From: a virus
Length of the DNA stretch: 33,917 bases
Virus record (IMG/VR): IMGVR_UViG_3300031711_000016
Coordinates: 1-33,917 of that record
Direction: 5' to 3' (one strand)
Numbering within the stretch: the first letter of the stretch is position 1; each line of letters begins with the position of its first letter. Both the position numbers and the translations under genes were made by a program. Under the pieces are notes generated by a model, which worked only from the letters and a program-made list of their open reading frames with translations, was not told the origin of the DNA and searched no databases. Positions 1,327-31,227 of this stretch are shown here, piece by piece.

Positions 1327-1602
1327 CTACCAGGTGCATTTACTCCCGGCAACGGCGCTGGCGATCGCCAGACCGCGCGCAAGCCCTGGATCGCTCGCGT
1401 GGGCCGTATTCGCGTTGATGCCGGCCTGGATGGCACACGCGGCCTGAGCGGCATCGGACAGCACCACAGGGGCGGCCTGGGCGATGCTGATAGCAGTGCT
1501 GAGTGCTCCGGCGCCACCAATGCCGGCAGCGATTGGAACGGCACCACAGCCGGCGAGGGCGCACAGGCCTAGGGCCGCGGCAAGGCGGGTGATCGTCTTC
1601 AT
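1327..1602 (-). CDS. Small lipoprotein, 91 aa
   Basis: The N-terminus has a type II signal peptide: a basic start (MKTITR), a hydrophobic core and the lipobox LAGC at about residues 16-19. The mature part is Ala/Gly-rich with a Cys pair. The start has AAAGGA upstream. It lies directly after the holin-like gene in the lysis region, so it could be an outer-membrane spanin component or another envelope protein. It is not proline-rich like classic o-spanins, so that assignment is only a possibility. Confidence 0.65.
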   Translation of the reverse strand: MKTITRLAAALGLCALAGCGAVPIAAGIGGAGALSTAISIAQAAPVVLSDAAQAACAIQAGINANTAHASDPGLARGLAIASAVAGSKCTW

Positions 1603-3570: not shown

Positions 3571-3699
3571 TCACGCCGCCGGAATCGTCATCAGCCCTGC
3601 CGCAGCCGTCACGATCAGCGCCGCGTCGAACAGGTCGCTGTGGCCGAATGTCAGCGCCAGGGCAACGCAGGTTGCGATGGAGACGAAGGGCCAGATCAC
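3571..3699 (-). CDS. Very small two-TM membrane protein, 42 aa
   Basis: A GTG start at 3699 overlaps the TGA of the upstream gene (GTGA), giving 42 residues that are almost wholly hydrophobic: two helices around a polar turn GHSDLFD, ending MTIPAA. The tight coupling and clean membrane pattern argue for a real gene that length cutoffs would miss. It could be a pinholin-like or holin-partner protein next to the XhlA-like gene, but size and topology alone do not prove this. Confidence 0.5.
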   Translation of the reverse strand: MIWPFVSIATCVALALTFGHSDLFDAALIVTAAAGLMTIPAA

Positions 3700-3905
3700 G
3701 GCTTTAGGCCAGCCACATACTGCTTCCAGTATTCAGCGGTAGCTTCGCGCTGCTTCACCAGCGCCTGAACAGCAGCCGCGACATGCTCTTGTTGTAACTG
3801 GGCGGCTTGCCATTCCTTGGCTAGCGCCGCTAGAACCTCGTCATCCGCCCGCGCAATCGAGGGGGCGAACGCAATGGCGGCAACAAGTGCGAGACGGCGG
3901 GTCAT
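3696..3905 (-). CDS. Small secreted helical protein, 69 aa
   Basis: The ATG at 3905 overlaps the previous stop (ATGA). The N-terminus is a Sec signal peptide with predicted cleavage after ARA (about residue 20). The mature 49 residues look like a single amphipathic, partly coiled-coil helix rich in Gln and Ala, ending EYWKQYVAGLKP. It resembles the 88-residue secreted protein at 27388-27654, which also follows a secreted fibre-like gene. An uncleaved version would look like an i-spanin. Neither role is proven. Confidence 0.65.
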   Translation of the reverse strand: MTRRLALVAAIAFAPSIARADDEVLAALAKEWQAAQLQQEHVAAAVQALVKQREATAEYWKQYVAGLKP

Positions 3906-4240
3906 TGCATCGTCACTGGGCTGACTGCGCCAGTGGCAGTAGCTGCCACTCCGGCCTGCTCCTGCGACAGCACGTTGTTCTTGATGCCTGTGAAGATGCC
4001 GGTAGCGATTGCGAGAAACGTCTCTGCGTTCGTGCGCGCGCGGCAAACGGGCGGCGTCGCGTTGTCGCATATCTGACCGTAAATCGTCTTGTAGGCGTTC
4101 AGTACGCGAGTGACATCGGCATCGGGGATCGTGACACTCTGCGTCATGGTTCCGGCGCCTGCGGTGGCGGTAAGGGTAAGAGTGCCAGCTTGCGCAACAG
4201 GAGCGGCAAGTAGGGCGAGGGCGAAGGCGATGTGTTTCAT
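3902..4240 (-). CDS. Secreted protein, 112 aa
   Basis: I chose ATG 4240 (MKHIAFALAL) because AGGA lies 8 nt upstream. An ATG three codons earlier (4249) is possible but overlaps the preceding stop. The signal peptide is predicted to be cleaved after AQA (about residue 19). The mature domain is Thr/Ala-rich and has one Cys pair (about residues 58 and 65) suited to a periplasmic disulfide. Its stop overlaps the next start (ATGA). I do not recognise the fold. Position after a tail-fibre-like gene suggests a fibre partner or chaperone, as inference only. Confidence 0.6.
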   Translation of the reverse strand: MKHIAFALALLAAPVAQAGTLTLTATAGAGTMTQSVTIPDADVTRVLNAYKTIYGQICDNATPPVCRARTNAETFLAIATGIFTGIKNNVLSQEQAGVAATATGAVSPVTMQ

Positions 4241-4242
4241 GT

Positions 4243-5517
4243 TTAGCATCCTGTGCAGGCGTTGACTTTGTAAGCTGTGCCGGTTGAGTCGTAGATCGTC
4301 AGATACCCCGCTGCGGTAGTCGTTCCGGCAGTGTAGGCGGTATCCGTTGTGATCTTGCCTTGTACCGGGGCGAAGGCGCTGTCATCGGCGAGGCGGGCTT
4401 GCAGGGTCGTGGTGCTGCGCTTCAGTGCGGGGAAACTTGAAGTCGTGCCGCCGAATTGGAGACGCCCGAAGTCTGTTCCGGCGTTGTTAGCGACAGTTAT
4501 TACACCGTCGCTAGGAGACAGGATTTCGCTTCTAGTTGACCAATAAAATGCACCAGCATTCGGTATAACAATATTGTTCGACCCGATTTGCGGCCCACCC
4601 CCGCCAACAATAAACCCGCTACCTGTAAATTGGGCTCCTGACATATTGGTTGCGACTGTCCACACTCCCGCCGTCGTCACCCCGTAATCGAGCTTGTTCG
4701 CACCCCCGATGAGGAACTGCATGTTCCGTGTAACACCAGTGCCGTTGGCCTTGGTCCCGATGGAGAGGACATTCGCAGTGTCCTGCCAGCCGAACGTGCC
4801 CCACTCGCCGTTGCTGGCGTCCGTGAAGGTGTTGTAGGTGCGGTGAACTTGGGCGTTGGTGGAGTTGCGCTGGGCGAGGATGCCTGCGGCGTCGCGGGCG
4901 AGGGCAAGATCTGTTGTTCCTGTTGAGGCATCAGCGGTCGAAGCAAAAGAAAAAAGACCACTGCTGGACACTTTAACAATTCCGTTTCCGCCAGAAATTA
5001 AAAATGCCTTTACAACACTAGACGCGTCACTGGCAAAAAACTGCCCTGCGCTTGGGGATGTTCCTGCGTAACCTGCTACCGAAGTTGCGGTGGAGAGCAT
5101 TCCGCCAGCCGTTGTGATATTACTGGTTACATTAGCCGTACCTGCCGCTACAACGTTACCGCTTCTATCAACACTGAACTCACTCGTTGTTCCGCTCGCG
5201 CCGCCATAGATGTTGAACAGCTTGGTGCTCGCCCCGCGCGCCGTATCCGTGACGGACAGCTTGAAGACATCGGGCGAGCCGGAGGTGTTGAGTGTCGTGC
5301 TCAGCGCGAAGTCGGAGGTCGCATCGCTGCCGGTGTGAGTGGCTCCTGAGATAACAAGCCCTGAAGTATTGACGGCGGGGTTGATCGTTTGAGTGGCCGT
5401 GAAGGTGTTGGCGGTTAGCTTAGCGCCACTGCCGCCGATCGAAACGCCCTGCGCCCAGGCGGGCGGCGACAATAGAGTAAGAGCGGCAAGAACAGCCCGA
5501 GCGAGGATGCCGCGCAT
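4243..5517 (-). CDS. Tail-fibre-like protein with Sec signal peptide, 424 aa
   Basis: The start at 5517 overlaps the previous stop (TGATG). The reading frame stays open upstream to 5622, but that part is an arginine-rich shadow of the preceding gene. Residues 1-23 are a clear signal peptide ending AWAQ. The rest is repetitive, Gly/Ser/Thr-rich beta-type sequence typical of phage fibres, with phrases such as FSVDRSGNVVAAG and TLQARLADDSAF common in fibre and tail-tip proteins. It ends NACTGC, its only cysteines. A virion fibre with an export signal is unexpected. It may be a receptor-binding protein or an exported fibre-like protein. Confidence 0.75.
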   Translation of the reverse strand: MRGILARAVLAALTLLSPPAWAQGVSIGGSGAKLTANTFTATQTINPAVNTSGLVISGATHTGSDATSDFALSTTLNTSGSPDVFKLSVTDTARGASTKLFNIYGGASGTTSEFSVDRSGNVVAAGTANVTSNITTAGGMLSTATSVAGYAGTSPSAGQFFASDASSVVKAFLISGGNGIVKVSSSGLFSFASTADASTGTTDLALARDAAGILAQRNSTNAQVHRTYNTFTDASNGEWGTFGWQDTANVLSIGTKANGTGVTRNMQFLIGGANKLDYGVTTAGVWTVATNMSGAQFTGSGFIVGGGGPQIGSNNIVIPNAGAFYWSTRSEILSPSDGVITVANNAGTDFGRLQFGGTTSSFPALKRSTTTLQARLADDSAFAPVQGKITTDTAYTAGTTTAAGYLTIYDSTGTAYKVNACTGC

Positions 5518-5885
5518 CACTGTAGCTCCACCGCTTCGTATTTGTGCCCATTGGTCGCGGCGTTGATCGACACCGCGCCCTGATAGGCGCCCGCGGCGCC
5601 GCCGAGATTGATGCTGCCGCACGCCGGCAAATCAGCGTGGTTCGGCGTGCCGCTCGTAATCGTCGCTGTGCCGCCGAGCGACACGAACAGGCTCTCGGTT
5701 GCATCGCAGGGGTTCATGATCCATCCGCCCTTGCGCCCGATATTGGCCGCAATAGTTGCGGGGGTGCCGCCGGTTGCCACTGTGCCGCCACGGTTCACTG
5801 AACTGACCCCACTCGGCGGCTCAGCTCGAGCAACCCCCGCCAAAAGCCCAAGCGCCAGCACGGCGCCGATACGCGCGAGTTTCAT
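5517..5885 (-). CDS. Accessory virion-like protein with signal peptide, 122 aa
   Basis: The start at 5885 has AGAGGCG upstream, and the open frame beyond it (to 5957) lacks coding character. Residues 1-22 are a signal peptide ending ARA. The mature part resembles small phage accessory proteins of beta-sandwich type: NRGGTVATGG, then a glycine-rich strand with IMNPCDATESLFVSLGG, ending GHKYEAVELQ. Two cysteines could form a disulfide after export. It is first of a coupled run with the fibre-like gene. The family resemblance is from memory and should be treated as moderate. Confidence 0.65.
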   Translation of the reverse strand: MKLARIGAVLALGLLAGVARAEPPSGVSSVNRGGTVATGGTPATIAANIGRKGGWIMNPCDATESLFVSLGGTATITSGTPNHADLPACGSINLGGAAGAYQGAVSINAATNGHKYEAVELQ

Positions 5886-8637: not shown

Positions 8638-11246
8638 CAGCCGCCCCTGACAATGCAGTTGGCGGCACGCTCATACGCAGCGGCGCGGGCGTTCGCGACT
8701 TCAATCTCCGCATCGGCAGCAACGATCTCCGGCGGCTTGGCGATTGCGGCGCGTTCAGTGCCCGCCTGGGGCGCTGTTTCGCCTTGGGGGGCAACTCTGC
8801 CCGCTCCGGCGCTTTGCTCGCCTGCGGCCACCGTGGACGGCTCTGGCGGCATTATCCGCGCTTCTATCTCTGCGTTCTGCTTTTCGATGTCGGCGAGAGT
8901 TTCCGGCTTGGCTCTCGCCGCCTCCTCTGCCGCTAATGCAGTCTCATTTATTTTGACCGGAGACGCGGTTAATTCCCTGACCGCCCGCGCCTGAGTATCG
9001 GCTAATTCAGCGGCTCGATTTCCGACCTGCCCTGGTCCAGCGCTGTCTGTGCCCTGATCTCCAAAGAGGCCCCCCGGCGCGTCAGGTCTTGATCCTCGAA
9101 CTTCGATCCTATTTGCTGCATTGTTCGCGCCATCGCTAACGCCGCCGCCGATGGGTAGCCCTGGCTGCTCGCCTCTGCCCCGCTGGGCCGCGAGTCGTTG
9201 GAGCTCGGCTGGCGTGACGGGAGCAAGCCCGAGGTCGAGCCCTCGTTCGGCACTGACTTTTCTGGCTTCGGTGGCATAGGTTTTCAGCGCCTCAATTATC
9301 CGAGCGGCACCAGCGGCGCGGCGTCCAGCAGGATCATAAAACATCCTCATCCAGTTTTCGACTGCCGGCGAGAGGCGATCGAATGCGTCTTGTTGCGCAA
9401 GATGGTCAGAAAGTCGAACGCCCTTGCTTCGCAGATCGGCCGTTCGGCGAACAGCCTCCAGTAACTCCGCGGTCATATCGACATCTGCCCGAACCCGACC
9501 CGCCTCAATGTCGGCGCGCATCCGCGCCCATAATGGCGAAGCGGAGACAAGGGAATTCGATATTGACTTGATGTCGTCCTGCGTCGCCTCGGCGATGCGG
9601 GCCAGGATCGCAGTGCCATTGCCGCCATCACCGTAGGCGCGTGCCAGCACCGCATTGCGCACTCGCCCCAACCCTTCGGCCGAAAGCCCCCCTTCTCCCG
9701 TGGCAATCATGCCCTGTTCAGCTTGCGGGAGCTTTTCAACAAAGGAGCGAACAAAATCACGGTTTGCCAATGCCCCGAGATCGTCGGGATTGCGGATCAG
9801 CTCGAGCATATCAGGCGTAATCGACCGAGCGTCCGCTAGCGCACGCTCAGGCGCTGACATGGCGAGCGTTGCGGGCCGGTTTGCCGCGATAGCGAACGCC
9901 CGTCTCTCCGAAGGGTTGAGCGGGGTAGTCCGCTGGCGTACTAGAACCGGCTCGTTATATTGCGAAACATCAACGCCCTGCGAAGTAAGCCACTCGCGAT
10001 ACCGAGCCGCGGCATCCCCATCCTGAGCATAAGCGCTGCGGATAGACATTACGCGACCGTTGCCGCTTTCCACCATTCCGTCATCGCCGACAATGGGAGC
10101 GCCCCTATCCGCTTCCGCCGACATTCCCAGCCGCGCCGGGTCGAGCCCAGCGGCCATTTCACGGACCTGTTGCTGGCTTGCCGCCCGGCCGCGATCACGC
10201 GGCTGCAAGCTCACGTCATAACCTGCATCTGCGGATGTTTTCAGATCGCCGGCCTCAACGATAACGGGCGCTACATCAACCGCATTGCCATCCGCCGTTA
10301 CCACCCTATGCGGCGGCATCGCCTGAACGGGTTTGCCAATCAAGCCGACGCCCGGCAAGACGCCCCTACCCGCATCGGCGAGGTCGAGCGCCGGCGCCAC
10401 ATTGACCGGCCTGTCCTCAATGTGCTGCGCTATCGCTCCCTGTAGCAGCGCCTCGCGCGTGTCCGGCCCAGCTTCCTCCAGCCGTTGCGTCAGTGGATTG
10501 GCATAGCGGCCTGCGGCTCTGTCAGCGACGGCGCCGCCGACTACATGCAACCCACCGCCGAGTAGCCCGCCGATCGCGATACTCCGCAACGCATCGCCGG
10601 CCGTGTAGTCTTCGTGCTCCTGCCGCGACAGGCCGAATTCAAGCGGCTGTAGCGCCGTCATCTGAGCCGACCCGCTGGCGGCTCCCGCGGCGGCCCGCAT
10701 TCCCGCGCGCTCGGCGGCACCCATCGTCTCGATAGCGCCACGCCCCAGCAACGAAGCAACCCGCGCCTCGCCGGCAACCGGGATCACCCCCGCCGCGATG
10801 TTCACCGGGTCGAGCAACCCCGCGGCCACGCTTGCCGTGAACCGCGCCGCACCGCCCGTCAGTAGCCCACTTTCACGCCGCGCAATCGCATCCTCGCGTT
10901 CGATCTGCGCCTGTTTGTGATCGTGCAAGTCTTGGGCGACAGATGGCGCGACCGGCTTACCGAAACTGAGTTGCCCCTTGATGCCGTATTGAGCGTTTGC
11001 CGTCTCAGGGTCGATCGGCTGTTCCGGTTCCATCCTGATTTCGGTGCCGAGTTCGCCGACGCCGAGCAGACCCGTATCCGCGCCGGAGCGACCAATCGAT
11101 CGCAGCATGCGCGGGAACAGGTTGGCCGCCATCCCCTCGCCAAAAGACGAGCCAAGCACCTGCCCGGTTGTCGCCGGCACTGCGTCGGCGCCCTGTTCAT
11201 TGAGGCCCGCGTATTCCAGCGGCGCGCCACCGTAGAAACCGACCAT
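8637..11246 (-). CDS. Internal virion protein with DdrB-type ParB-like domain, 869 aa
   Basis: Residues about 345-560 match the DdrB-like ParB superfamily domain: LQPRDRGRAASQQQVREMA (347-365), then GAPIVGDDG and ESGNGR (393-398), which correspond to the substrate-binding motifs of ParB/Srx-type folds. Residues 130-245 are Gly/Ala-rich with hydrophobic helices, and the C-terminal 200 residues are low-complexity and Ala/Glu-rich. It is sandwiched by 1-nt overlaps between two other ejection-type genes, so it is likely packaged and injected. An injected nucleotide-binding or DNA-acting function is inference. Confidence 0.75.
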   Translation of the reverse strand: MVGFYGGAPLEYAGLNEQGADAVPATTGQVLGSSFGEGMAANLFPRMLRSIGRSGADTGLLGVGELGTEIRMEPEQPIDPETANAQYGIKGQLSFGKPVAPSVAQDLHDHKQAQIEREDAIARRESGLLTGGAARFTASVAAGLLDPVNIAAGVIPVAGEARVASLLGRGAIETMGAAERAGMRAAAGAASGSAQMTALQPLEFGLSRQEHEDYTAGDALRSIAIGGLLGGGLHVVGGAVADRAAGRYANPLTQRLEEAGPDTREALLQGAIAQHIEDRPVNVAPALDLADAGRGVLPGVGLIGKPVQAMPPHRVVTADGNAVDVAPVIVEAGDLKTSADAGYDVSLQPRDRGRAASQQQVREMAAGLDPARLGMSAEADRGAPIVGDDGMVESGNGRVMSIRSAYAQDGDAAARYREWLTSQGVDVSQYNEPVLVRQRTTPLNPSERRAFAIAANRPATLAMSAPERALADARSITPDMLELIRNPDDLGALANRDFVRSFVEKLPQAEQGMIATGEGGLSAEGLGRVRNAVLARAYGDGGNGTAILARIAEATQDDIKSISNSLVSASPLWARMRADIEAGRVRADVDMTAELLEAVRRTADLRSKGVRLSDHLAQQDAFDRLSPAVENWMRMFYDPAGRRAAGAARIIEALKTYATEARKVSAERGLDLGLAPVTPAELQRLAAQRGRGEQPGLPIGGGVSDGANNAANRIEVRGSRPDAPGGLFGDQGTDSAGPGQVGNRAAELADTQARAVRELTASPVKINETALAAEEAARAKPETLADIEKQNAEIEARIMPPEPSTVAAGEQSAGAGRVAPQGETAPQAGTERAAIAKPPEIVAADAEIEVANARAAAYERAANCIVRGG

Positions 11247-14928: not shown

Positions 14929-15296
14929 CGCCAGACCATCCGCTCGCACTCGATATCCGGCGCTTCCTGGAAGCCCAATAGCCGCAGCCAGCGATCGGAC
15001 TTCGCAATGCCCTCGTGACGGTAGCAATGCACCGCCTTGATGCCCCGAGCCCTCAAATCAGCAAACTCAGCTCGCACAAGCCGGGTCAACGCGATCGCCG
15101 ATAGCGGCTTCCCCGAAGGTACTTCGAGCCACGCCCAGGTGCGCCCGCCGCCGTGGCTGAACCAACCGATACCGATCACCTTGCCGTCGCATTCGAGCGC
15201 ATAGCCGCACCAGGTTTCGTGATAGCGCGGATCCGGCTGCCGGCCGGCGAGCGCCGCGAAATCATCCCTTGTTGCGGGGCGGAGCAGGAGGCTCAT
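14913..15296 (-). CDS. GNAT-fold protein, T7 gp13-like, 127 aa
   Basis: The sequence follows the GNAT acetyltransferase plan: LLLRPATRDDF at the start, a beta hairpin VIGIGWFSHGGGRTWAWLEV, a central helix, and the terminal RWLRLLGFQEAPD. The usual acetyl-CoA loop (R/QxxGxG/A) is not clear, so it may not be catalytic. GNAT-like proteins occupy the same place, between tail tube and ejection genes, in T7-like and BPP-1-like phages and are thought to help virion assembly. Its start lies 35 nt inside the previous gene. Confidence 0.7.
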   Translation of the reverse strand: MSLLLRPATRDDFAALAGRQPDPRYHETWCGYALECDGKVIGIGWFSHGGGRTWAWLEVPSGKPLSAIALTRLVRAEFADLRARGIKAVHCYRHEGIAKSDRWLRLLGFQEAPDIECERMVWRCVLI

Positions 15297-17991
15297 CGTC
15301 CGGTTCGTTCGTGCTGATCTGTAACGCCAGACCCATCATCGTCGCGCAATAGGGGCCTTGCACCTGCATGCAAAGGCGGGAATCGGCATCCCAGCCGCCA
15401 TTGAACGAGCTTGGGTTAGCGTCGTAGGCCGTCAGCACCTGTCCCGCCGTTAAAGCCGCGCCCCGATATGTCGCCGGCAACCCCGTCATGTGCGTGAAAT
15501 CGCGGCCGATCCGAACGCCCTTCCACGCCACATCGGCCATCACCATACCGACGCGCGCCAAGCGCTTCTGTTCCGTCAAAGCCGTTCCGCGCTCAGCCGC
15601 ATAGGCCAGCTTCGATGTCTTCAACTGCGCCGTGGCCGAGAGGCCGACGACGACGTTTGAGGCCGCGGCCGCAAGCGTGATTGAGCCGCCCGTTACCGTC
15701 ATCGTGCCGGCAACCGGGGCGCCATCCGCCCACACCACCACATCTTCGCCTTCAAGATGATCGATGCCGGCATTGATGGTGCTCACCGGGGCGCCGGTAT
15801 AGACGAAGTGACTATCGATCAGAGCTTTGCTGAGCGTTCCGCCCTGGCCTTCGCTCCGTTTGGTCAATTTCTCGATATACCGAACCGGATCGCCATCGAT
15901 GGTGCGGAGGACGATAAAATAAACGTCGTCTTCATCGCCGCCCGGCAAGACCGCGACACGCTCAATTGCACCATTGGGCGTCGTAACCGGCGTCCACGCC
16001 CGCACCTCATCGTCGCGATCATAGGTCAGCACTGCGCATGTCCCGTCGCCGAGCGCGAACCATAGCCGCGTATCCGGTTGACGCTGCACCGCGAGGTCAA
16101 CAACCCCCGCATTGCACATTTCCTGCTTGAGACGAGTCAGCTCCTGCGGCCGATAGTCCCCACCCTGCGGATCGTAGAGGAGTTCAAAGACGCGCTTCCC
16201 ATTGCGCTCGACAAAGACCCCCATCGTATCGACCCGTAATCCGCGCAGCCGCGCAACGCCCTGTGTCCCACAAGCCCTGGCGACGAACGCGGTCGGCGTC
16301 AGCGGCTCATCAAAAGCCGATGCGCGGATCGAGACTTCCTGCGCAGCGGTCCCGGCGATCAGGCGCTGCAGCGACAACAGAAAGCGCACCCCGTCCAAGC
16401 CGCCCGTCGCTATCGTGCGGTTGATCGGGCCGCTATCTCCCGTTATCGTGTCATCGAAAGAGCCAAATCCGTCCGAAACCGATAGCTGTACTTTGATGCT
16501 CGGCGACCACGCCAGCCGGCCGTCATGCAGCGCCACCGCGGCGGGCCAGCCTCGGTAATCCGACCACTCGCCTTCGGCCCAATTCGTCGTCGCGTCGGTC
16601 GCGCCAACCTGCTTCAAGACATCGGCCGAAGCACTAATTCCGCTAGAGACTGCCGTAATACGAACAATGCCGGTCTGCGACGCTCCCGCGTAAGTCAGCT
16701 CAGCGTCCGCCGTGCCGCTGGTGTAGGCGCTCATGTTCAAGCGGTAATAGACGATCTGGTTGTCGAGACCGTCGTCGTAGGTTTCCGTGGTCGGGACCGT
16801 GTAACTCTTGACCGCAGACCACGACCCGACATCGCCAATCGATCGTTCCAGATCGATCGTCCCGACGAACGTACCCGTGATCGAAACGCCAACGCCGCGA
16901 GACGATGTGCTCGGATCACCCTGATTAAGATTTGATAATCCCGCTACCCGCACCGCTCCGGTCGCCTGCGCCGCCCCCGCAAGGGCCGCTGCCGCGGCTT
17001 GCGTCGAGTGCGTCAGCTTGAACAGCGCCCCAACATGCCCAGGCTTGAACACGGGATGCGACGCGGCGAGAGTGACCGGGCCATGCACATCGTCAGCCGC
17101 GATCGTCGTCGACCCGGTATTCGCGGCGCGGAACGGCCCGTCATTGACGAGATAGAGCGCAATCCCCCAGGATCTTGAGTCCGACGCGCGCCGCTCAATC
17201 CGGCGCTGCTGAACATTCGAGGCGACAAAAATCACATCGCCGGACTGGTCGTACTGGATCGTGTCGAAATCAGCCTTTGTTGACCACGGCACCGGCAGGC
17301 TTACTGCCCCGGTGCTTTCAATCTCGATACTGTCCACAAACGCCGGGAAGAAGTCGTTACCTCCCAGCCTGATCCAGAAATCCCCACTTGGGGTAAGCGC
17401 CAGGCTGTATGTTCCCGGCAACAGAACGGCATCGATGTAATTGTTGTCCCCCTGCGTTGAGCCAACCTGGAGAACAACGGTGCCGTAGCTGACAACTACC
17501 CGCAATCCGTGCTCAAGGTTGAGATCGCCGCCTGCCACGCTCACCTGTTGATCGCGATAGGCGAAGTTGGCGCCGGTGCCCGTCAGGCTCAGCTTCCCGC
17601 TGTCCCAAGCCGATGTTGCGCCGGACTCGTCACTGTCCGTCCATCCGGTCAGATCAGTATCGAAATCGCCGTTGTTGATGTCGGTCGCCACCGCGACACG
17701 GCTCAACCACGCGTCATCGATCAGGAATTGCAGCCCGGCCGATGTCGCGACCAGCAGCGCCTTCGTGGCTTCGTCAAAGGTAAACTCGCCGAGCCAGCCT
17801 TGCGCATTACCCGGCACCCCGGCGATATACGCCGTGCCGGGCCGCGTCATTGCCGGACCCAAAACATGCGGGAGAAAGTTGGATTGTGTCTCACAGGCTA
17901 CCCGGAGCTTTGCAAGATCAACCCTTGCGAGCGCAAGTCTCGATATTTCGCCGGCATTGAGGCTGGCGAATAGCGTTTCGATTAGAGCCAC
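15262..17991 (-). CDS. Tail tubular protein B-like (nozzle), 909 aa
   Basis: The N-terminus LFASLNAGEISRLALARVDL and the following NFLPHVLGPAMTRPGTAYIA are the familiar opening of podovirus tail tubular B/nozzle proteins. Length is a little above T7 gp12. The body is beta-rich, and the central block AEGEWSDYRGWPAAVALHDG is typical of the family. In the virion it would close the tail below the A ring. It starts 6 nt after the repeat-containing tail protein, so the two are co-translated. Confidence 0.85.
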   Translation of the reverse strand: MALIETLFASLNAGEISRLALARVDLAKLRVACETQSNFLPHVLGPAMTRPGTAYIAGVPGNAQGWLGEFTFDEATKALLVATSAGLQFLIDDAWLSRVAVATDINNGDFDTDLTGWTDSDESGATSAWDSGKLSLTGTGANFAYRDQQVSVAGGDLNLEHGLRVVVSYGTVVLQVGSTQGDNNYIDAVLLPGTYSLALTPSGDFWIRLGGNDFFPAFVDSIEIESTGAVSLPVPWSTKADFDTIQYDQSGDVIFVASNVQQRRIERRASDSRSWGIALYLVNDGPFRAANTGSTTIAADDVHGPVTLAASHPVFKPGHVGALFKLTHSTQAAAAALAGAAQATGAVRVAGLSNLNQGDPSTSSRGVGVSITGTFVGTIDLERSIGDVGSWSAVKSYTVPTTETYDDGLDNQIVYYRLNMSAYTSGTADAELTYAGASQTGIVRITAVSSGISASADVLKQVGATDATTNWAEGEWSDYRGWPAAVALHDGRLAWSPSIKVQLSVSDGFGSFDDTITGDSGPINRTIATGGLDGVRFLLSLQRLIAGTAAQEVSIRASAFDEPLTPTAFVARACGTQGVARLRGLRVDTMGVFVERNGKRVFELLYDPQGGDYRPQELTRLKQEMCNAGVVDLAVQRQPDTRLWFALGDGTCAVLTYDRDDEVRAWTPVTTPNGAIERVAVLPGGDEDDVYFIVLRTIDGDPVRYIEKLTKRSEGQGGTLSKALIDSHFVYTGAPVSTINAGIDHLEGEDVVVWADGAPVAGTMTVTGGSITLAAAASNVVVGLSATAQLKTSKLAYAAERGTALTEQKRLARVGMVMADVAWKGVRIGRDFTHMTGLPATYRGAALTAGQVLTAYDANPSSFNGGWDADSRLCMQVQGPYCATMMGLALQISTNEPDDEPPAPPRNKG

Positions 17992-17997
17992 GATCTA

Positions 17998-20061
17998 CTA
18001 ATAAATCGCGTTCTTGTCGCGGAAGGCGCCGCGTGCGTAGCGGCCGGAGACAAACCGGCTGGAACTCTGGTAGGGCGGCAAGTCCTGCTGATCGTCGAAC
18101 TTTTCCGCCCCTTCCATCGCATGCTCGTAGAGCTTCAGCTTTGCGGTCGCGACGCCAGCCATTTTCGGGTCCGCGTTGGCCTCGGTATATTCGAGATAGG
18201 CCAAGACAGCCTCACGCACATGCGCCGGCCATTTCGTTACGTCGAGCCCGAGCCGAGAGATGTACCGGATCGTGATCGGGGTCCGGTTGGCGTGAATCGC
18301 CCCACCTTCCTCGCGATAGTCAACGTCTTCGCGGTAGGCGTAGAGGCCGCTGCCGTACAGGAAATAGACCCAGATGGTTTTAAGGTGATCATCCGGCAGG
18401 ATAAAGCGATAGCCATAGCTGTCCGAGACCGTGCCGTCGCTGCCTTCCGCCGGCAGCGGATCGCTCGACTCGGTGAGGCTAACGGTCTTGACGGCAAATC
18501 GCCACCGGCCCGTTTCGACCATCATCTGTGCCGCGGAGCGGAACCGCCCGTCGAGTTGAAACCGCAACCACTGATCGGGCGCGCGGCTATAGAGAGCCAA
18601 GGCTTCGTCAAGCAGCCGCTGATACACAGCTCCACGCGTTCCTGCGGCGGCAGTCCGGTCTTTCGGATCGGTTGCGGCATCAGGGAGAGCCCGCATTTCA
18701 AGATAGGCGAGCACGGCCTGGTCGACCACCTCCGGCCACAGCGTCGTATCGAGAGCCGTTGTCGAGACGTAGCGCGCGGTAAACGCCGCCGCGTCCGTGC
18801 TCCAGTCGTTTGCCGACTCCCGTATATTGATCGGCCGCTCGTTGCCGTCCCAAGGGATAAACAAGGCATGGGTGCGCAGCCAATCGCTCGGTAGCGCATA
18901 CCTGTAGGGCAGCCCCGCAGCAGGGTCGGTCGTGAGCTGATCGGTCTGGCTGCTGTAGCCCACCTCTTTCAGCGCCCACCACCAAAACCCTTTCGAGATG
19001 ATGGCACGACGGGCTCGATCGAACTCGCCGGATAGCTGGTAGCCAAGCCACGGGTCCGGAGGCTCGGCTTCACTGTCTAGCGTATCCTTAAACGCGTCCT
19101 TCCACGCCAGACCATCGGCTTGCTGATCGGCCGCGTCAGCCAGATTGGCGCGGTCGAACTCAATCTGCCGCAGCACGGCCCGCATATAATGCTCGGGCCA
19201 GTTCCGCGTGTCGTTCGTCAGGGTGTGGTCGATATACTCGGCATAGAACGATGTGACATCGGTGTACCAAATGGCGTCGCGCTCGCGAACGTCGAACGGC
19301 ACTCGCCGGCCATCGCTGGTAAGTTGAAACAGCGCTCGCGTGCGTGACCATGCGGCAGGGGTATCGACACTTCGGGCAAACCCGCCCCCCGGCGTAGCGG
19401 CGGTCGTCATCAGCACCGGCGCCGGCATGGCGAAGCGCCAGAACCCGGCATCAACCATCGCCGCCGCGATCCGCGCAAAGGTGCCGTCAAGCTGCGCCGC
19501 GAGCCACGGATTTTCGGGCAGGGCGTCCCGCGTCACCGCTTCCGCCAGGTGTTGCGAGAACACGGTGGACATGCGGGAGGCGGCTGAACGCTCGCCAGTG
19601 ACACGCTCGGCAACCTGAAACGCGAGATAGGCCGCCGCGGCGCGGGCGAAATGCTCCGGCCACGGGTTGTTCGCCAAGGCGGGATCGAGAAAATCAGTCG
19701 AGACGTACCGGATATAGACAGGCGCGGTGTTGTTGTTCGCCGAAAAAAGCAGCCCCTGCTCGCGCACATCAACCGGCCGCTCGCTCTTGTCGGCGAGCAC
19801 GAACAGCGCATGTGTGCGCAACCAATCAGTCGGGCGGCTGTAGGCCGAATCAAACCCCGGCAACGCGCCCATGCTGGTGCTGAGCGCTACGGTTTTGAGC
19901 GCGAACCGCCACGCCGCATGCCGCAGCACGAAGGAAACCGACTCAGCCCAAGCGTCATCGAGGGCGTACCGGCTCTCGACATCATCGGTAATGACATCAA
20001 GGCGCGCGTCGGCGAGTAGCCGAAGAGCGTCCTGATAGATACTGAGTTTGGTAGCGGCCAA
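17998..20061 (-). CDS. Tail tubular A-like protein with four tandem repeats, 687 aa
   Basis: The chain contains four divergent copies of one unit of about 155 residues. Each has a WRF(A)-type strand (near residues 51, 207, 359 and 519), a (D/A)W-RT-ALF motif (79, 237, 393 and 558), a (R/E)Y(V/I)S-type strand (118, 275, 430 and 599) and a WPEH-type helix start. Each unit is about the size of the core of T7 gp11, normally a separate protein of about 200 residues forming a ring under the portal. Position directly before the tail tubular B gene supports the name. No cysteines were seen. It starts 1 nt after the previous gene. Confidence 0.78.
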   Translation of the reverse strand: MAATKLSIYQDALRLLADARLDVITDDVESRYALDDAWAESVSFVLRHAAWRFALKTVALSTSMGALPGFDSAYSRPTDWLRTHALFVLADKSERPVDVREQGLLFSANNNTAPVYIRYVSTDFLDPALANNPWPEHFARAAAAYLAFQVAERVTGERSAASRMSTVFSQHLAEAVTRDALPENPWLAAQLDGTFARIAAAMVDAGFWRFAMPAPVLMTTAATPGGGFARSVDTPAAWSRTRALFQLTSDGRRVPFDVRERDAIWYTDVTSFYAEYIDHTLTNDTRNWPEHYMRAVLRQIEFDRANLADAADQQADGLAWKDAFKDTLDSEAEPPDPWLGYQLSGEFDRARRAIISKGFWWWALKEVGYSSQTDQLTTDPAAGLPYRYALPSDWLRTHALFIPWDGNERPINIRESANDWSTDAAAFTARYVSTTALDTTLWPEVVDQAVLAYLEMRALPDAATDPKDRTAAAGTRGAVYQRLLDEALALYSRAPDQWLRFQLDGRFRSAAQMMVETGRWRFAVKTVSLTESSDPLPAEGSDGTVSDSYGYRFILPDDHLKTIWVYFLYGSGLYAYREDVDYREEGGAIHANRTPITIRYISRLGLDVTKWPAHVREAVLAYLEYTEANADPKMAGVATAKLKLYEHAMEGAEKFDDQQDLPPYQSSSRFVSGRYARGAFRDKNAIY

Positions 20062-26067: not shown

Positions 26068-27387
26068 CTAGCGTGCCCAGCGCTTCTGCCGCGCGTAACC
26101 GACGCTGGCCTGTGTCTGTAATGGTTGCCGGTCAATCTCCGGCTCCTGATAGGCGACGCACATCATCCCGAAGGCGTCCGAGCCGTGGCTCGACCAATCG
26201 TGGTCAGGCCCAAGCCCGATCTCGCGCTCATCGTCCGAGCGTTTTTCGTGATACCAGCCCAGCGCGTCTCGACCCGACTCCGTAGTGGCTTCGTTGAACC
26301 ACACCATCGGGAACCGGCGCCGCGCCGCCTCAATCCTCAATCTCGCGGCGCCCTTGCCCTGATTGGGGATCACGGTCACGTCGAAACCAGCGTGACGGAA
26401 CGCGCTGTTAAACGACACGTCATGCACGCGGTCGTTGGTCTCGCCATCGTGCGGCAGGAAGATTTGCGCCTTGCCCCAGCCTTGCTCACGCAGCCACTGG
26501 ATATGCACCGCGAGCGGCTGACCGACCGCCTCGTAATAGTCGAGCACCCTGATTTCGCGACCGATGAACTGCGCGATCCAGATGGCGAAGGCGTCAGACT
26601 TGGCCCCCGTGCCGCCGATGTCGCAATACGCGCGCACCGACATCAGGGGGTCGGCGGCGACCCGGCATATCCGGCCTGACCGTCTCGCGTCCGCTAGCCC
26701 GGCCGCGTAATAAGCCCCGGCATGGGCGGTGGCATAACCACCCTCCCAAATATGCTCATACTGTTCGGGGCGCTTCTCTTTATCCTCGCGGCGTTGAGTT
26801 TCAAGAATGGTCGGGAACCACGGGTTGTCTCGCCAGTTCATCTCGACGATCTTGGACTGCGACGGCGTGTCCATCCGAAAGCGCTGATTGGTAGCGCTGT
26901 TTTTTCGCTCCGGGTTCCACGTTACCCAAATCTCGGCGTTCTCTTCACGAACACTCGGGATCGCCTTTACCCACGCCGTTTCGGACACAGGTTCGGCTTC
27001 ATCGACCCACAGCAGATGAATGCGCGCTTTCGATTTCACCGAGTCGAGGTTGTGCCGAAGCCCGATAAACGAGAAGTCTATGCGCCCGTCTTTAGTGCGG
27101 ATGAACTTCTCGCCAATGTCGTACCTCGCAGAAAGCCAAGGCTCGCTCTGAATAGCCGCCTTGACCTCGGCCATCGAACTTTCATCGAGCGAATTCTGAA
27201 ACTCCCGACCGCAAACGATAACCCCGGATGCCCCACCCTCGGCGCAGCGGAACCCGTGCACCGCGGCCATCTTTGCGAACGACCGCGTTTTGGCCGAACC
27301 ACGGCCGCCGTAGGCCCCACGATACATCGCCTCGCCCGAAAACACCGGCACGAGCTTGGCCGGCAGGGCGAGTTGGATTGCCCCCAT
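26068..27387 (-). CDS. terL: Terminase large subunit, 439 aa
   Basis: This is the packaging motor that cuts and pumps DNA into the head. The ATPase domain shows Walker A GGRGSAKT (27-34), Walker B LLWVDEAE (125-132) and the coupling motif VTWNPE (155-160). The nuclease domain shows the acidic residues expected of an RNase H fold: D256 in CDIGGTG, D314 in PHDGE and D396/D404 in the C-terminal DHDWSSHGSDAFG segment. The layout fits the PBSX/Terminase_3-type family. It starts one base after the stop of the 88-residue secreted protein, so it is probably coupled to it. Confidence 0.95.
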   Translation of the reverse strand: MGAIQLALPAKLVPVFSGEAMYRGAYGGRGSAKTRSFAKMAAVHGFRCAEGGASGVIVCGREFQNSLDESSMAEVKAAIQSEPWLSARYDIGEKFIRTKDGRIDFSFIGLRHNLDSVKSKARIHLLWVDEAEPVSETAWVKAIPSVREENAEIWVTWNPERKNSATNQRFRMDTPSQSKIVEMNWRDNPWFPTILETQRREDKEKRPEQYEHIWEGGYATAHAGAYYAAGLADARRSGRICRVAADPLMSVRAYCDIGGTGAKSDAFAIWIAQFIGREIRVLDYYEAVGQPLAVHIQWLREQGWGKAQIFLPHDGETNDRVHDVSFNSAFRHAGFDVTVIPNQGKGAARLRIEAARRRFPMVWFNEATTESGRDALGWYHEKRSDDEREIGLGPDHDWSSHGSDAFGMMCVAYQEPEIDRQPLQTQASVGYARQKRWAR

Positions 27388-27654
27388 TTACTTCGTCGGC
27401 TCGAAAGCCCACAGCGGCTTTGCGTATTCGGCCCAGCCTTGCTCACGCTTCTTGCTGTCGGCCAGATCGCGAGCGAGCTGTTCGTTCTGCTCCTTCAACA
27501 GCGAGACATAACCACCGATCGCCTTCAGCATGTTCTCGTACTGCGTGCGAGCCGCGCCGACCTGGGCCGCAACGTCGCGCTCGGCAACCTGCGTGTCGGC
27601 CGCGTGCGCGGCTCCGGCCCCCGCAATCAGCAGTGCCGCCAGAAACAACCGCAT
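27388..27654 (-). CDS. Small secreted helical protein, 88 aa
   Basis: A Sec signal peptide (MRLFLAALLIAGAGAAHA, cleavage after AHA) is followed by about 70 residues of amphipathic helix rich in Gln, Lys and Glu (YVSLLKEQNEQLARDLADSK), ending with aromatic residues (WAEYAKPLWAF). The ATG overlaps the tailspike stop (TGATG) and the stop abuts the large terminase start. It parallels the 69-residue protein at 3696-3905 in layout and ending. It might be a partner of the exported tailspike-like protein or an i-spanin-like factor. The role is unknown. Confidence 0.65.
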   Translation of the reverse strand: MRLFLAALLIAGAGAAHAADTQVAERDVAAQVGAARTQYENMLKAIGGYVSLLKEQNEQLARDLADSKKREQGWAEYAKPLWAFEPTK

Positions 27655-30191
27655 CAGTTATACACCCACGCGTTCTCGAGGCAGACCACCGAGCGCTGTT
27701 TTGCGCCATCCGCGGCGGCGTAAGCAGACAGGTATGTCGGGCTTGTCTTGCCGTCCGATACCGTGGCGATCGATCCGGCCATCGCGGAGTTGCAAGTCGG
27801 GATCGCACTGCCGCCGCTGCCCGCGTACTGCGTCTGCGGCTGGATGAGCTTGCCCGAGATGACGCCCGCGCCTCGCCCATTCAGCCCGAAGGCGTGGAAC
27901 GATAGATCATCATCCATCGCCCACGCGCCCGCCATCGAGGCGTCATTTGCGGTCACGCGAAAAATCAACTGCGCGCCGGTGTGGCCGCTCGACCAGTCCT
28001 GCGTTGTGGAGCCCTCGATACGGGCAGCCTCGGTCATGTGGCCGTTGGTCGTGTCGTACTGGCCGTAAAAGCCGTAGTACCCGAGAATGTCGCCGCTCGA
28101 TACGGCAGCCAGAGACCCATGCGTACCGCGGGTGCGGCCGAGCATCATCGACGCCGTGTGGCTTGTGCCGTAGGCGACGATGTTGCTCGCCACGTTCTGC
28201 TCATCAGGTCCGTCGAGCAGGCGGGCGAAGGTCTGCGTCACCATGCCGTTGAAATTGGTCGAGTTCGCCAGGGTTGCGCCCGAGTAGAACGTATCAACCA
28301 GCGGCTCGACCGGATCGCCACTATGGATGCAGACACGGGTCGTCTGGCACCAGCGGTTGCCGAAGCCGGTATCGATCAGCGCCGTGGTAACGCCGTTGAG
28401 CGCGCCCGTGCCGTAGACATCGTTAAACGAAGCGCCGTTCGCGAAGGCGATGCCAACATAAGTCGTGGTTGTGCCGCCGCTTTCGACATACGGGCGATCG
28501 AACTTGTTGCGCGAGGCACCGTTCGCCCCTGTTCCGACCAAAATGTCATAGGCCGTGTTCTGGAAACTGATGCCCGAGAAATCGTTGTCGTCGCCGTTTG
28601 CCAGCACCAAGCCCATCAACAGGCAAGACGCCTCCTTCGGCGCGATGATGCTGTGGTTCAGCTTCTCGGTGCCGTCCGACTTGGTGGTGTCAACCAAGAT
28701 GCCGACCGGGGAGAACACGCACGTCGCCTCGCCGATTGTCGTCCAACGGCTGCCGACAACCCCGCGGTTCCAGCGCGTATAGGTCAGGTTGTTTAGATTG
28801 TTCCCCAGCAAGGTGACGTTTGCTGTGGGTAGCACCTTGTCACCAAGGCTGTCGGTATAGGTCCAAGGCGGCGAGAAGACGGCCTCCTGGCCCGTTAGAT
28901 CACTCGGCCCCGTAACATTCCAATGCGTCGCGTCGACCTGGCTGCCGACTGTCGAGTATCGATTGCTCGACCGCGCGCAGCTTTTGCAGAGGATGACTTG
29001 CCCAGTCGCGATCGTCCCTTTGTTCAGCGTGTTAACGGTCATCACGCTTGAGGTAATCGAGATATTTGCCTCGGCGCTGCTGGCAATCGACCCGGCGCCG
29101 TAGCTATCGAAGTCTTCAAGGATCGTGCGCTGAGCGCCGGCGATCGTCAGGTTGGATCCCGCCAGACCGCCGCCATCCATGACGCAATTCTTGATCTGCG
29201 GCCCGCGCTGGATCGCGGCTGTCGGATACGCGTCGCCAAGGGTAACGGTCGTCATACCGTAGCCCACCGCCGTCCGGTGGAACGTGGCGGCCTGCCCCAT
29301 GCAAACCATCTGCAAGCCAGGCGGGATCGTCAGCGACGTGAAATCGAGTTCCATCGGATTGTAGAGCACGAGACCCGACGACGCGGCGTAGTTGATCGCC
29401 TTCTGGATTTGCGCCGTGGCGTCCGAGCCGTGCGAAGGCGGCCCGAAGTCTCGCATATCAAGAAAGCTCTGCGTCGTTATCCACGACGTACCATCGTCCG
29501 CATCCCGGCAATGGCCCTTGTCGCTGACAAACCCGTTGTCGGCACAAGTCCCACTCTTGTTCCAGAACGTCAGCGCCGGCGCGTCGCCTACTGCACTGGC
29601 ACCGCCCCGGATCGCGCGACTCGCCGTCGCGCCTGAGAGCGCCGCCAGGGCCGTATCGGTGCTCACCCACGGCAGCGCCGCGACCGAGGCCGCCCCGACC
29701 GAGCTCGCGACATACCCGACCGTCGCAACCTGCGTTGACCCAGCGCCGCCCGAGGGGGTCGGCGCAGTCGGCGTGCCGAGCAACGCCCAGCCTGTCGCGT
29801 TTGCCGTCGCGATCGTGGTGCCGTCTGCCGTGACCTGTAGCGCCTTCGCCGCCTCGCCGTAGCTCGCCCACGACAGCAGCGGGTTGCCGCTCGTATCGTG
29901 ACCGAGGCCCAGAGCGTTATACGCGCCGGTCGTCGCCGCGCTGTTGGTGCTCAGACCGAGCGCGTTCAAGTCGGTGATCGAGAACGGATTGAGGCCCTTG
30001 CCCTGCGCGTCGCCCGCCAGGCCACCGGCTTTGCCGTAGCGACCGTTGGTCAGGAACTTGAGTGCGTCGCCGGGCACGAGGTCGGAGCCGTCCTGATATG
30101 CGGGGACACGCTGGGCATACGCTGGCACAGCAACAGCCGCACCCAGCGCAGCCGCGAGCACCCCGCGCCCGAGATAGCGAAGCAGGTTCAT
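27654..30191 (-). CDS. Tailspike-like beta-helix protein with Sec signal peptide, 845 aa
   Basis: Residues 1-26 form a strong signal peptide (basic start, long hydrophobic core, AYA before Q). Residues 30-175 resemble N-terminal linkers of phage tail proteins. From about 243 the phrase FLDMRDFGPPSHGSDATAQI followed by an Ala-rich helix is the opening of pectate-lyase-type right-handed beta-helix spikes, which bind or degrade surface polysaccharide. Twelve cysteines, several closely paired (CADNGFVSDKGHC, CKSC, CQTTRVC), would suit a disulfide-forming compartment. It starts after its own hairpin and AGGA site and is coupled to the 88-aa gene. Confidence 0.8.
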   Translation of the reverse strand: MNLLRYLGRGVLAAALGAAVAVPAYAQRVPAYQDGSDLVPGDALKFLTNGRYGKAGGLAGDAQGKGLNPFSITDLNALGLSTNSAATTGAYNALGLGHDTSGNPLLSWASYGEAAKALQVTADGTTIATANATGWALLGTPTAPTPSGGAGSTQVATVGYVASSVGAASVAALPWVSTDTALAALSGATASRAIRGGASAVGDAPALTFWNKSGTCADNGFVSDKGHCRDADDGTSWITTQSFLDMRDFGPPSHGSDATAQIQKAINYAASSGLVLYNPMELDFTSLTIPPGLQMVCMGQAATFHRTAVGYGMTTVTLGDAYPTAAIQRGPQIKNCVMDGGGLAGSNLTIAGAQRTILEDFDSYGAGSIASSAEANISITSSVMTVNTLNKGTIATGQVILCKSCARSSNRYSTVGSQVDATHWNVTGPSDLTGQEAVFSPPWTYTDSLGDKVLPTANVTLLGNNLNNLTYTRWNRGVVGSRWTTIGEATCVFSPVGILVDTTKSDGTEKLNHSIIAPKEASCLLMGLVLANGDDNDFSGISFQNTAYDILVGTGANGASRNKFDRPYVESGGTTTTYVGIAFANGASFNDVYGTGALNGVTTALIDTGFGNRWCQTTRVCIHSGDPVEPLVDTFYSGATLANSTNFNGMVTQTFARLLDGPDEQNVASNIVAYGTSHTASMMLGRTRGTHGSLAAVSSGDILGYYGFYGQYDTTNGHMTEAARIEGSTTQDWSSGHTGAQLIFRVTANDASMAGAWAMDDDLSFHAFGLNGRGAGVISGKLIQPQTQYAGSGGSAIPTCNSAMAGSIATVSDGKTSPTYLSAYAAADGAKQRSVVCLENAWVYN

Positions 30192-30212: not shown

Positions 30213-30230
30213 AGCCGCCCGAAAGCGGCT
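30213..30230 (-). terminator. Terminator-like hairpin upstream of the tailspike gene
   Basis: On the minus strand AGCCGC, a 6-nt loop, GCGGCT is followed by TTTCC, giving a U-run of four with the last stem base. It lies between the 69-aa gene and the tailspike start, so it may end the small-terminase transcript or reduce read-through into the exported module. Confidence 0.5.
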
Positions 30231-30251
30231 GTTATCGCGCTATGGTTGTGT

Positions 30252-30267
30252 CCGCTCGGTGGAGCGG
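30252..30267. other. Second hairpin upstream of the tailspike gene
   Basis: CCGCTC (30252-30257) pairs perfectly with GAGCGG (30262-30267) around a 4-nt loop. On the plus strand a TTTTT follows after a 6-nt gap, so it could stop rightward transcription; on the minus strand there is no T-run. With the neighbouring hairpin it makes a structured boundary. Confidence 0.35.
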
Positions 30268-30282
30268 GAGCATTTTTGTAAA

Positions 30283-30492
30283 CTAGCGGTTGGCTTCAGC
30301 CTCGATCCGCTCGATGATGCGGCTCTTTACGTCTTCGCCAAGACAGGAGGCGTCGCGAACAGCTTGCTTAATCCTCACGTCAAACGACGCCCTCATCATC
30401 ACCATAAGCTGCGAGTCTGGAACTCTCACGATGACATCGGGGGCATCTATCTGCCCGCAATTAGCTGTCAGCGTTTGGCGGTAGCTCATCAT
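30283..30492 (-). CDS. Small protein, possible ribbon-helix-helix, 69 aa
   Basis: The second half (LMVMMRASFDVRIKQAVRDA, then GEDVKSRIIERIEAEANR) follows the strand-helix-helix rhythm of Arc/MetJ-type DNA-binding proteins, though the match is loose. Two adjacent ATGs (30492 and 30489) could start it, with a weak purine-rich site upstream. It lies 34 nt after the 81-aa gene and just before the hairpin pair. It may be a regulator of the downstream module or an unrelated small protein. Confidence 0.45.
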   Translation of the reverse strand: MMSYRQTLTANCGQIDAPDVIVRVPDSQLMVMMRASFDVRIKQAVRDASCLGEDVKSRIIERIEAEANR

Positions 30493-30526
30493 CTCTCGCC
30501 CTTCGGCTCGACCGGCACTTGCGTAT

Positions 30527-30772
30527 CTAGGGTTGGGGCGGGGTTATCCTCTTGACCCGGCCCGACCCCCACGTGGCATGATCGTGGTCGCTCTTCGCTT
30601 GCACGATCTGATCTACGGCATATCGCCCATCAACCTCAGCAAGAACCTCACGCCTCAGCGCCGAAAGCTCTGCCGACAAATCACTGATCCGCTTAAGCTT
30701 GTCTCGCAACTCGGGCGACAAGTCGGGCAATTGCCGCAACCACGAAACGCCTTGCGACTTCACCCGATTCAC
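30527..30772 (-). CDS. Small helical protein coupled to the small terminase, 81 aa
   Basis: The GTG start at 30772 overlaps the stop of the small terminase gene (GTGA), a strong sign of coupling. Residues 17-48 form a charged helix with coiled-coil character (LRDKLKRISDLSAELSALRR), and the last 25 residues are basic and polar. No family is recognised. It could assist terminase assembly, as inference from coupling only. Confidence 0.55.
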   Translation of the reverse strand: MNRVKSQGVSWLRQLPDLSPELRDKLKRISDLSAELSALRREVLAEVDGRYAVDQIVQAKSDHDHATWGSGRVKRITPPQP

Positions 30773-31227
30773 TCCCCCGCGCCCTTCGGCTCGACCGGCA
30801 CCAACTCGATACGGGTGATCGTCTCAAGCGGACCACCATTTGGCCCGGTGTGGGCTACCTCGGTCTTTTCGCCATACTTCTTTGGCGCCATCTTTGCCAT
30901 CAACCAGCGGCGAGCATCGACGCGTAGCTTTGAGCGCTGAATGTGCTCATGATCAAGAACCGTGACCTCGCGGCCATCGATCTCGCGCTTGATCCAATCG
31001 TTCGTGCCGTCGTCAGCAATCTCAATGATTTCCTCAGCGAAACGATCGGCCTGCAAATCTTTCGCGCGCGCATATTGTTCACGGAAAGCCTCGTCATCGC
31101 GCGCCCAATTCACTATTGCCGATGGGCTCGCGACGCCAAGCTCTTTGGCGATCTGACGTAGTGTAAACCCCTCAGCGATGCGCTCACAGATCATCTCGGC
31201 GTTTTCTGCTGACCGAATAGCCGTCAT
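30769..31227 (-). CDS. terS: Terminase small subunit, 152 aa
   Basis: Residues 1-50 contain a helix-turn-helix (EGFTLRQIAKELGVASPSAI) for recognising the packaging site. The middle is helical, and RSKLRVDARRWLMAKMAPKK followed by YGEK is a signature of small terminase subunits of this type. The C-terminal part, with GPLETITRIELVPVEPKGAGE, probably contacts the large subunit. The start has AAGG upstream. Unusually, the large subunit gene is 3.4 kb downstream, separated by two small genes and the signal-peptide module. Confidence 0.85.
   Translation of the reverse strand: MTAIRSAENAEMICERIAEGFTLRQIAKELGVASPSAIVNWARDDEAFREQYARAKDLQADRFAEEIIEIADDGTNDWIKREIDGREVTVLDHEHIQRSKLRVDARRWLMAKMAPKKYGEKTEVAHTGPNGGPLETITRIELVPVEPKGAGE

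Follow-up and report, generated by a model that had tools for sequence, protein, structure and literature searches.

A spike with a predicted Sec signal peptide encoded between the terminase genes of a tailed phage suggests that some phage spikes may mature outside the cytoplasm

The usual view is that tail fibres fold in the cytoplasm and are assembled onto the virion there. The tail fibre gp51 of Burkholderia phage Bcep1 (Naesvirus) carries a clear Sec signal peptide, noted by its annotators as a 'possible signal peptide domain'; its gene lies among baseplate and tail genes, not between those for the small (TerS) and large (TerL) terminase subunits. The host-binding tail fibre gp19 of Sinorhizobium phage phiM5 has no signal peptide, and its annotation reads 'detected in phage particle proteome'. 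That TerS and TerL can lie kilobases apart has been reported for Bcep22-like phages (Lessievirus: Bcep22, BcepMigl, JC1; PMC9144972), but the interval of BcepMigl holds small genes and no exported spikes, and the fibres of this phage show no convincing signal peptide. Exported phage-fibre-like trimers with a signal peptide and variable tips have been described as the MAT fibres of Bdellovibrio (PMC10769870); these are host-encoded and used by the bacterium, and are likened here by description. Podoviruses of the HTVC010P and vB_PaeP_Tr60_Ab31 type have portal, tail and internal virion proteins like those studied here, but no spike module before TerL, and the tail fibre of Tr60_Ab31 is not exported. 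In the open literature, a scope that leaves out most subscription journals, we found no paper on signal-peptide-bearing phage fibres, and no virion proteomics was found for any such fibre.

The window, which is the whole stretch of DNA analysed, is a 33.9-kb fragment of a tailed phage from a virus record. Its late genes, which occupy the minus strand, run from TerS through small ORFs, the spike, an 88-aa protein (cc88), TerL, a 138-aa ORF, the portal (PF12236), a 337-aa ORF, the capsid (PF19821), tubular tail proteins, internal virion proteins and a second exported module (module B) to a GH25 endolysin (Table 1). By sequence, the portal and internal virion proteins place the phage with podoviruses of the HTVC010P/Tr60_Ab31/BPP-1 type, and a portal search of viral contigs found nothing of its own lineage. 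The original prediction had put a signal-peptide-bearing spike and an exported 88-aa protein between TerS and TerL, and this arrangement was borne out together with the coordinates, the cysteine count and the translational coupling towards TerL: the spike stop and the cc88 start share one base in TGATG, and the cc88 stop abuts the TerL ATG.

Table 1. Features of the terminase region and of the second exported module, in window coordinates.
Feature	Position	Strand	Basis
TerS, terminase small subunit, 152 aa	30769..31227	-	PF20901 E 3.2e-38; phrog_1482 E 7e-40
22-bp perfect direct repeat	copy 1 30497..30518, copy 2 30780-30801	.	repeat search
81-aa ORF, 4-nt overlap with TerS stop	30527..30772	-	no family match
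69-aa ORF	30283..30492	-	no homolog found
Second hairpin upstream of spike	30251-30268		
Terminator-like hairpin AGCCGCTTTCGGGCGGCT-TTT, just upstream of spike ribosome-binding site	30213..30230	-	such sites no more numerous than by chance
Spike/fibre-like protein, 845 aa, 12 Cys, ATG start	27654..30191	-	predicted exported; fibre repeat, C-terminal cap
Spike Sec signal peptide, residues 1-26 (predicted)	30114..30191	-	inspection; heuristic scan
Spike C-terminal cap, last ~50 aa	27657..27806	-	profile match E 3.2e-5 over 11,490 ORF segments
cc88, 88-aa exported helical protein	27388..27654	-	signal-peptide scan; AF2 helix
TerL, terminase large subunit, 439 aa, ATG start at 27387	26068..27387	-	PF04466 E 1.7e-20
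Module B, exported 122-aa protein	5517..5885	-	signal peptide
Module B, exported fibre-like protein, 424 aa	4243..5517	-	signal peptide; TGATG-coupled to 122-aa gene
Module B, exported 112-aa protein	3902..4240	-	signal peptide
Module B, exported 69-aa helical protein (cc69)	3696..3905	-	signal peptide

The spike opens with MNLLRYLGRGVLAAALGAAVAVPAYA, followed by QRV..., a textbook Sec signal peptide in which inspection predicted cleavage between AYA and Q. Its n-h-c pattern and the small residues at -3 and -1 were found by inspection and by scan, and all the cysteines fall within the mature part. A tail-fibre repeat, GTPTAPTP..STQVATVGYVASSV, begins at residue 139 and is of the common GTPTAPTP...TQVATxxYVxSS type. 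In the C-terminal cap, C800 and C837 align with a conserved cysteine pair of exported spikes in related phages, and this two-cysteine cap is the only part that the spike has in common with the relatives carrying exported cassettes. Since the cap is present too on a non-exported, N-anchored spike in the contig of one of these relatives (L034), it is by itself no sign of export. Residues 245-277 align in register with the start of the relatives' pectate-lyase-like spikes, a weak similarity short of significance (full E 3.4, custom profile). The resemblance of the mature start QRVP to the relatives' QQVPDP starts was set aside as too short to count. The protein had been described as a beta-helix spike; its spike- or fibre-like nature stands, whereas the beta-helix is not established, as no match was found in Pfam, PHROG, NCBIfam or PDB. 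The AF2 model from the single sequence reached pLDDT 34 and was left unused. Residues 27-273, the first ~247 of the mature chain, had no homolog among 50,697 phage records at E<=1; tblastn found none of the spike in phages, nor were any found in viral contigs, with either the whole protein or its C-terminal 206 aa as query, or in seven genomes holding a TerL relative.

The partner protein cc88 begins with MRLFLAALLIAGAGAAHA, after which the predicted mature part starts with AD; these 70 aa were modelled by AF2 as a single helix over residues 2-59 (pLDDT 87), in agreement with the secreted helical protein originally proposed. Its likeness to the small helical proteins of relatives was weak (z 0.7-3.6). 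On these features the window protein is spike/fibre-like and very probably exported, and the case that the module is exported through Sec is a strong one. As for the hairpins attributed to the module, two are present upstream of the spike, but terminator-like sites in the region were no more numerous than by chance (7 versus 5.6+-2.5). The spike leader folded only slightly better than its shuffles (z -1.6), and no Rfam match was found in the region.

Signal peptides were sought with a home-made n-h-c heuristic in every reading frame and from every start codon of the window. The scan flagged the spike, cc88, the four genes of the block 5885-3696, one lipoprotein, and three implausible matches (one internal TTG start and two antisense frames). 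The four-gene block, module B, was absent from the original prediction. Each of its genes overlaps or almost touches the next, and the block sits behind the phrog_684 internal virion protein, which is the position of the tail fibre in Tr60_Ab31 and the canonical tail-fibre slot. The 424-aa fibre has segments in common with L177 and MW202444, and cc69 resembles a small exported protein that L019 encodes ahead of TerL (z 6), the sole convincing pair of this kind. Membership of the 122-aa protein in the small exported family of the relatives' cassettes was rejected (profile comparison probability 0.2%). The phage thus has two modules for export, and in each a fibre or spike is paired with a small helical protein. 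Every fibre seen in the window's late region had a signal peptide, but since the record is only a fragment, a non-exported one may be encoded beyond its ends. Exported proteins contained 1.17 Cys per 100 aa versus 0.37 for non-exported virion and packaging proteins (3.2 times; Fisher p 5e-4), and the corresponding values in relatives were 1.47 versus 0.66.

The lipoprotein ORF (1327-1602, minus strand) is small, has the lipobox LAGC and is a possible o-spanin. The small partners could on this account be i-spanin-like lysis proteins that merely lie beside exported fibres, a reading that concerns the partners only and is compatible with any view of the spike. Both cc88 and cc69 have an N-terminal hydrophobic stretch and a periplasmic helix, and cc69 adjoins the endolysin region. 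We consider this unlikely: their AxA-type sites suggest cleavage, similar proteins lie between exported fibres and TerL in L019, L024, L025 and L051, away from lysis genes, and one phage has two such genes.

Several other features of the layout were recorded. TerS ends 577 nt from the spike, with the 81-aa and 69-aa ORFs in between. The 22-bp direct repeat encodes VPVEPKG of the TerS C-terminus, flanks the 81-aa ORF on both sides and is likely the scar of an earlier duplication or insertion event. The tubular tail protein A homolog (phrog_394; 17998-20061, minus strand) is a single 687-aa chain with four tandem copies (pairwise z 15-27; repeat 1 versus HTVC010P gp12, z 13), versus one ~200-aa copy in relatives. 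TubeA is the ring to which fibres attach, and an excess of fibre genes has been considered in connection with a lineage of Rhizobiales phages that has dual tubeA (PMC10386132). Three four-copy chains could make a 12-subunit ring of three-fold symmetry. The 909-aa tail protein at 15262-17991 (minus strand) is ~200 aa longer than its family phrog_376 (712 positions) and probably has an inserted domain. A virion-region protein at 8637-11246 (minus strand) contains a ddrB-like ParB domain (PF18763, E 8e-36) and resembles parts of very large phage proteins.

Relatives were collected with TerL as the search handle, which gave 80 viral loci at 61-78% identity and 80 genome loci. ORFs of 200 aa or more in 67 non-redundant viral loci were scored for a strict signal peptide, which was present in 24 of 133 within 7 kb upstream of TerL versus 2 of 180 on the downstream side (p 4e-8). 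Among the loci in which TerS was visible, it abuts TerL in seven (L012, L028, L043, L046, L058, L067 and L077), as it does in Tr60_Ab31 and EBPR podovirus 2. All six TerS-TerL gaps above 2.1 kb (2.6-6.4 kb) contain exported ORFs, namely spikes and glycan-active-looking proteins, and gaps of 0.9-2.0 kb contain none. Within the cassettes the genes come in an approximate order: first one for a ~120-aa protein, then those for a ~300-aa PF09206-matching protein and at least one spike, followed in some by a DUF5010-like protein and in some by a small exported helical protein before TerL. A ~395-aa exported family with Tat- or Sec-like starts also occurs in these cassettes (L054:8647-9840, L014:4936-6123, L024:5771-6946); the L014 member has weak DUF5010 similarity, and these proteins are possible glycoside hydrolases. 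On the TerL tree, a quick tree with SH-aLRT support only, all exported-cassette loci and the window fell in one supported 25-row clade, and the cassette label required 6 changes versus 12.3 when shuffled (0 of 500 shuffles as low). The portals of the cassette relatives are of another kind than that of the window; TerL and the slot upstream of it were therefore probably swapped between lineages of phages.

This comparison agrees with the original view that the terminase genes are normally adjacent or close, the interval being closed in many relatives and open with other exported proteins in one clade. The mobile moron that had been proposed was not sustained. Presence or absence at one site was found among relatives, but there was no composition shift across the spike module, no promoter-like site for it in a scan that covered the sigma-70 type only, no terminator between cc88 and TerL, and no repeats around the spike and cc88, the neighbouring 81-aa ORF alone being bracketed. 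Placement before TerL is a clade-wide habit of this TerL lineage rather than a unique mobile insertion. These findings bear as well on lysogenic conversion or superinfection exclusion, in which an exported spike would be displayed or retained in the envelope of a lysogen and block or alter receptor glycans. Lom of phage lambda, which is exported, is known to have its gene between tail genes (PMC12309495), and an integrase-like gene on the L034 contig, recognized by inspection, means that some cassette phages may be temperate. Nevertheless, a module with neither a promoter-like site of its own nor a terminator before TerL should be silent in a lysogen, and no outer-membrane anchor was seen, which makes this explanation improbable.

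A degenerate DNA search for DMY[PQ]DAxNA, the mature start of cassette spikes, returned 47 sites in 42 viral loci, 46 of them directly behind a signal peptide; the motif was absent from 385 alphaproteobacterial genomes. The bodies that follow vary widely in size and content, which reads as the mosaic pattern of receptor-binding proteins. In L070 the TerS-TerL slot has no spike, and an exported spike and an exported fibre occupy the tail-fibre slot. The L070 fibre has a signal peptide ending in AFA, and the part behind the cleavage site, QVPTTNYGWLKPTIGASANTWGNNLNGDLDGIDST, matches the N-terminal module of phiM5 gp19, which stands at the extreme N-terminus in three other phages. This match is the strongest clue that an exported fibre is a virion fibre to which a signal peptide has been added in front. 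The gp19 protein itself is unrelated in sequence to the window spike. The body of Bcep1 gp51 is related to the exported fibre of L024 (32% identity) and has no direct sequence relation to the window spike.

The same data speak to whether the hydrophobic N-terminus is instead an uncleaved virion anchor of a spike assembled in the cytoplasm. Virion fibres do bear their anchors N-terminally, but six proteins of the window, small ones included, have the n-h-c pattern and an AxA-type site, 46 of the 47 motif-bearing fibres have the signal-peptide pattern likewise, the virion module of L070 lies after the hydrophobic stretch and not inside it, and neither the anchored fibres of BcepMigl and Tr60_Ab31 nor the non-exported spike of the L034 contig have such a stretch. 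An anchor is therefore very improbable.

Ordinary, non-exported virion fibres are encoded too on the contigs of the cassette relatives L024, L008 and L034, so that the exported ones are extra there. The ordinary fibres of cassette phages (L172:6807-8342, L174:357-1817, L170:12427-13200) have a common N-terminal WSPIDxSN..PDGWPEGM...VNNSARAMMG module and a tail-fibre-like C-terminus. The presence of separate virion fibres would suit free effectors, by which the spike and cassette proteins would be released, directly or at lysis, from an infected or lysogenic cell to act on polysaccharide of the host, its neighbours or a biofilm without ever joining a virion. So would the relatives' cassettes, where spikes occur side by side with exported proteins of ArabFuran-like and DUF5010-like type and with pectate-lyase-like domains. 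On the other hand, both the window and L070 have an exported fibre where a tail fibre normally lies, with no further fibre seen; in L070 that fibre keeps a virion-fibre module right behind its cleavage site, and the conserved mature N-terminus DMYPDASNA suggests a docking partner. Moreover, a soluble enzyme that lysis sets free would have no use for a signal peptide, except where it acts earlier or depends on oxidative folding. Release as free effectors, the chief alternative, is somewhat unlikely.

We favour a periplasmic route for virion-type spikes, to which we assign a probability of roughly 45%. Very probably the spike and cc88 would be expressed along with the late genes, by coupling to TerL, and leave the cytoplasm through Sec. 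The spike may then fold in the oxidising periplasm, where its cysteines, including the conserved cap pair, would form disulfides, and the small exported helical protein may go along as an assembly partner or adaptor. At lysis, mature spikes would encounter the newly made particles and dock, and would then act in receptor binding or glycan degradation. Support for the periplasmic route comes from the confinement of signal peptides to two modules (apart from the lipoprotein and the implausible matches), the lack of a signal-peptide-less fibre in the late region, the cysteine enrichment of exported proteins, the cap match, the skew at TerL and the clustering on its tree, the motif starts behind signal peptides, the phiM5-type module of L070, and Bcep1 gp51. 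The ordinary virion fibres of cassette relatives are the main counter-evidence and fit free exported proteins as well, and the free-enzyme-like PF09206-like and DUF5010-like exported proteins also count against it. As the N-terminus of the window spike has no relative, docking is argued from other phages.

Together, the repeated occurrence of exported spikes at the same spot in related phages suggests a maturation outside the cytoplasm for some phage spikes. A little more tentatively, some tailed phages may route receptor-binding spikes through Sec, lock them by disulfides in the periplasm with a small helical partner and complete their virions only at lysis, with the genes arranged as exchangeable cassettes before TerL. 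If recurrent, such fibres would show that the periplasm is open to phages as a folding compartment; folding there would permit tips stabilised by disulfides, would hold spikes separate from particles until lysis, and would amount to a second assembly route for tail fibres. If the proteins are free enzymes instead, this clade of phages has cassettes dedicated to the secretion of glycan-active proteins before a packaging gene.
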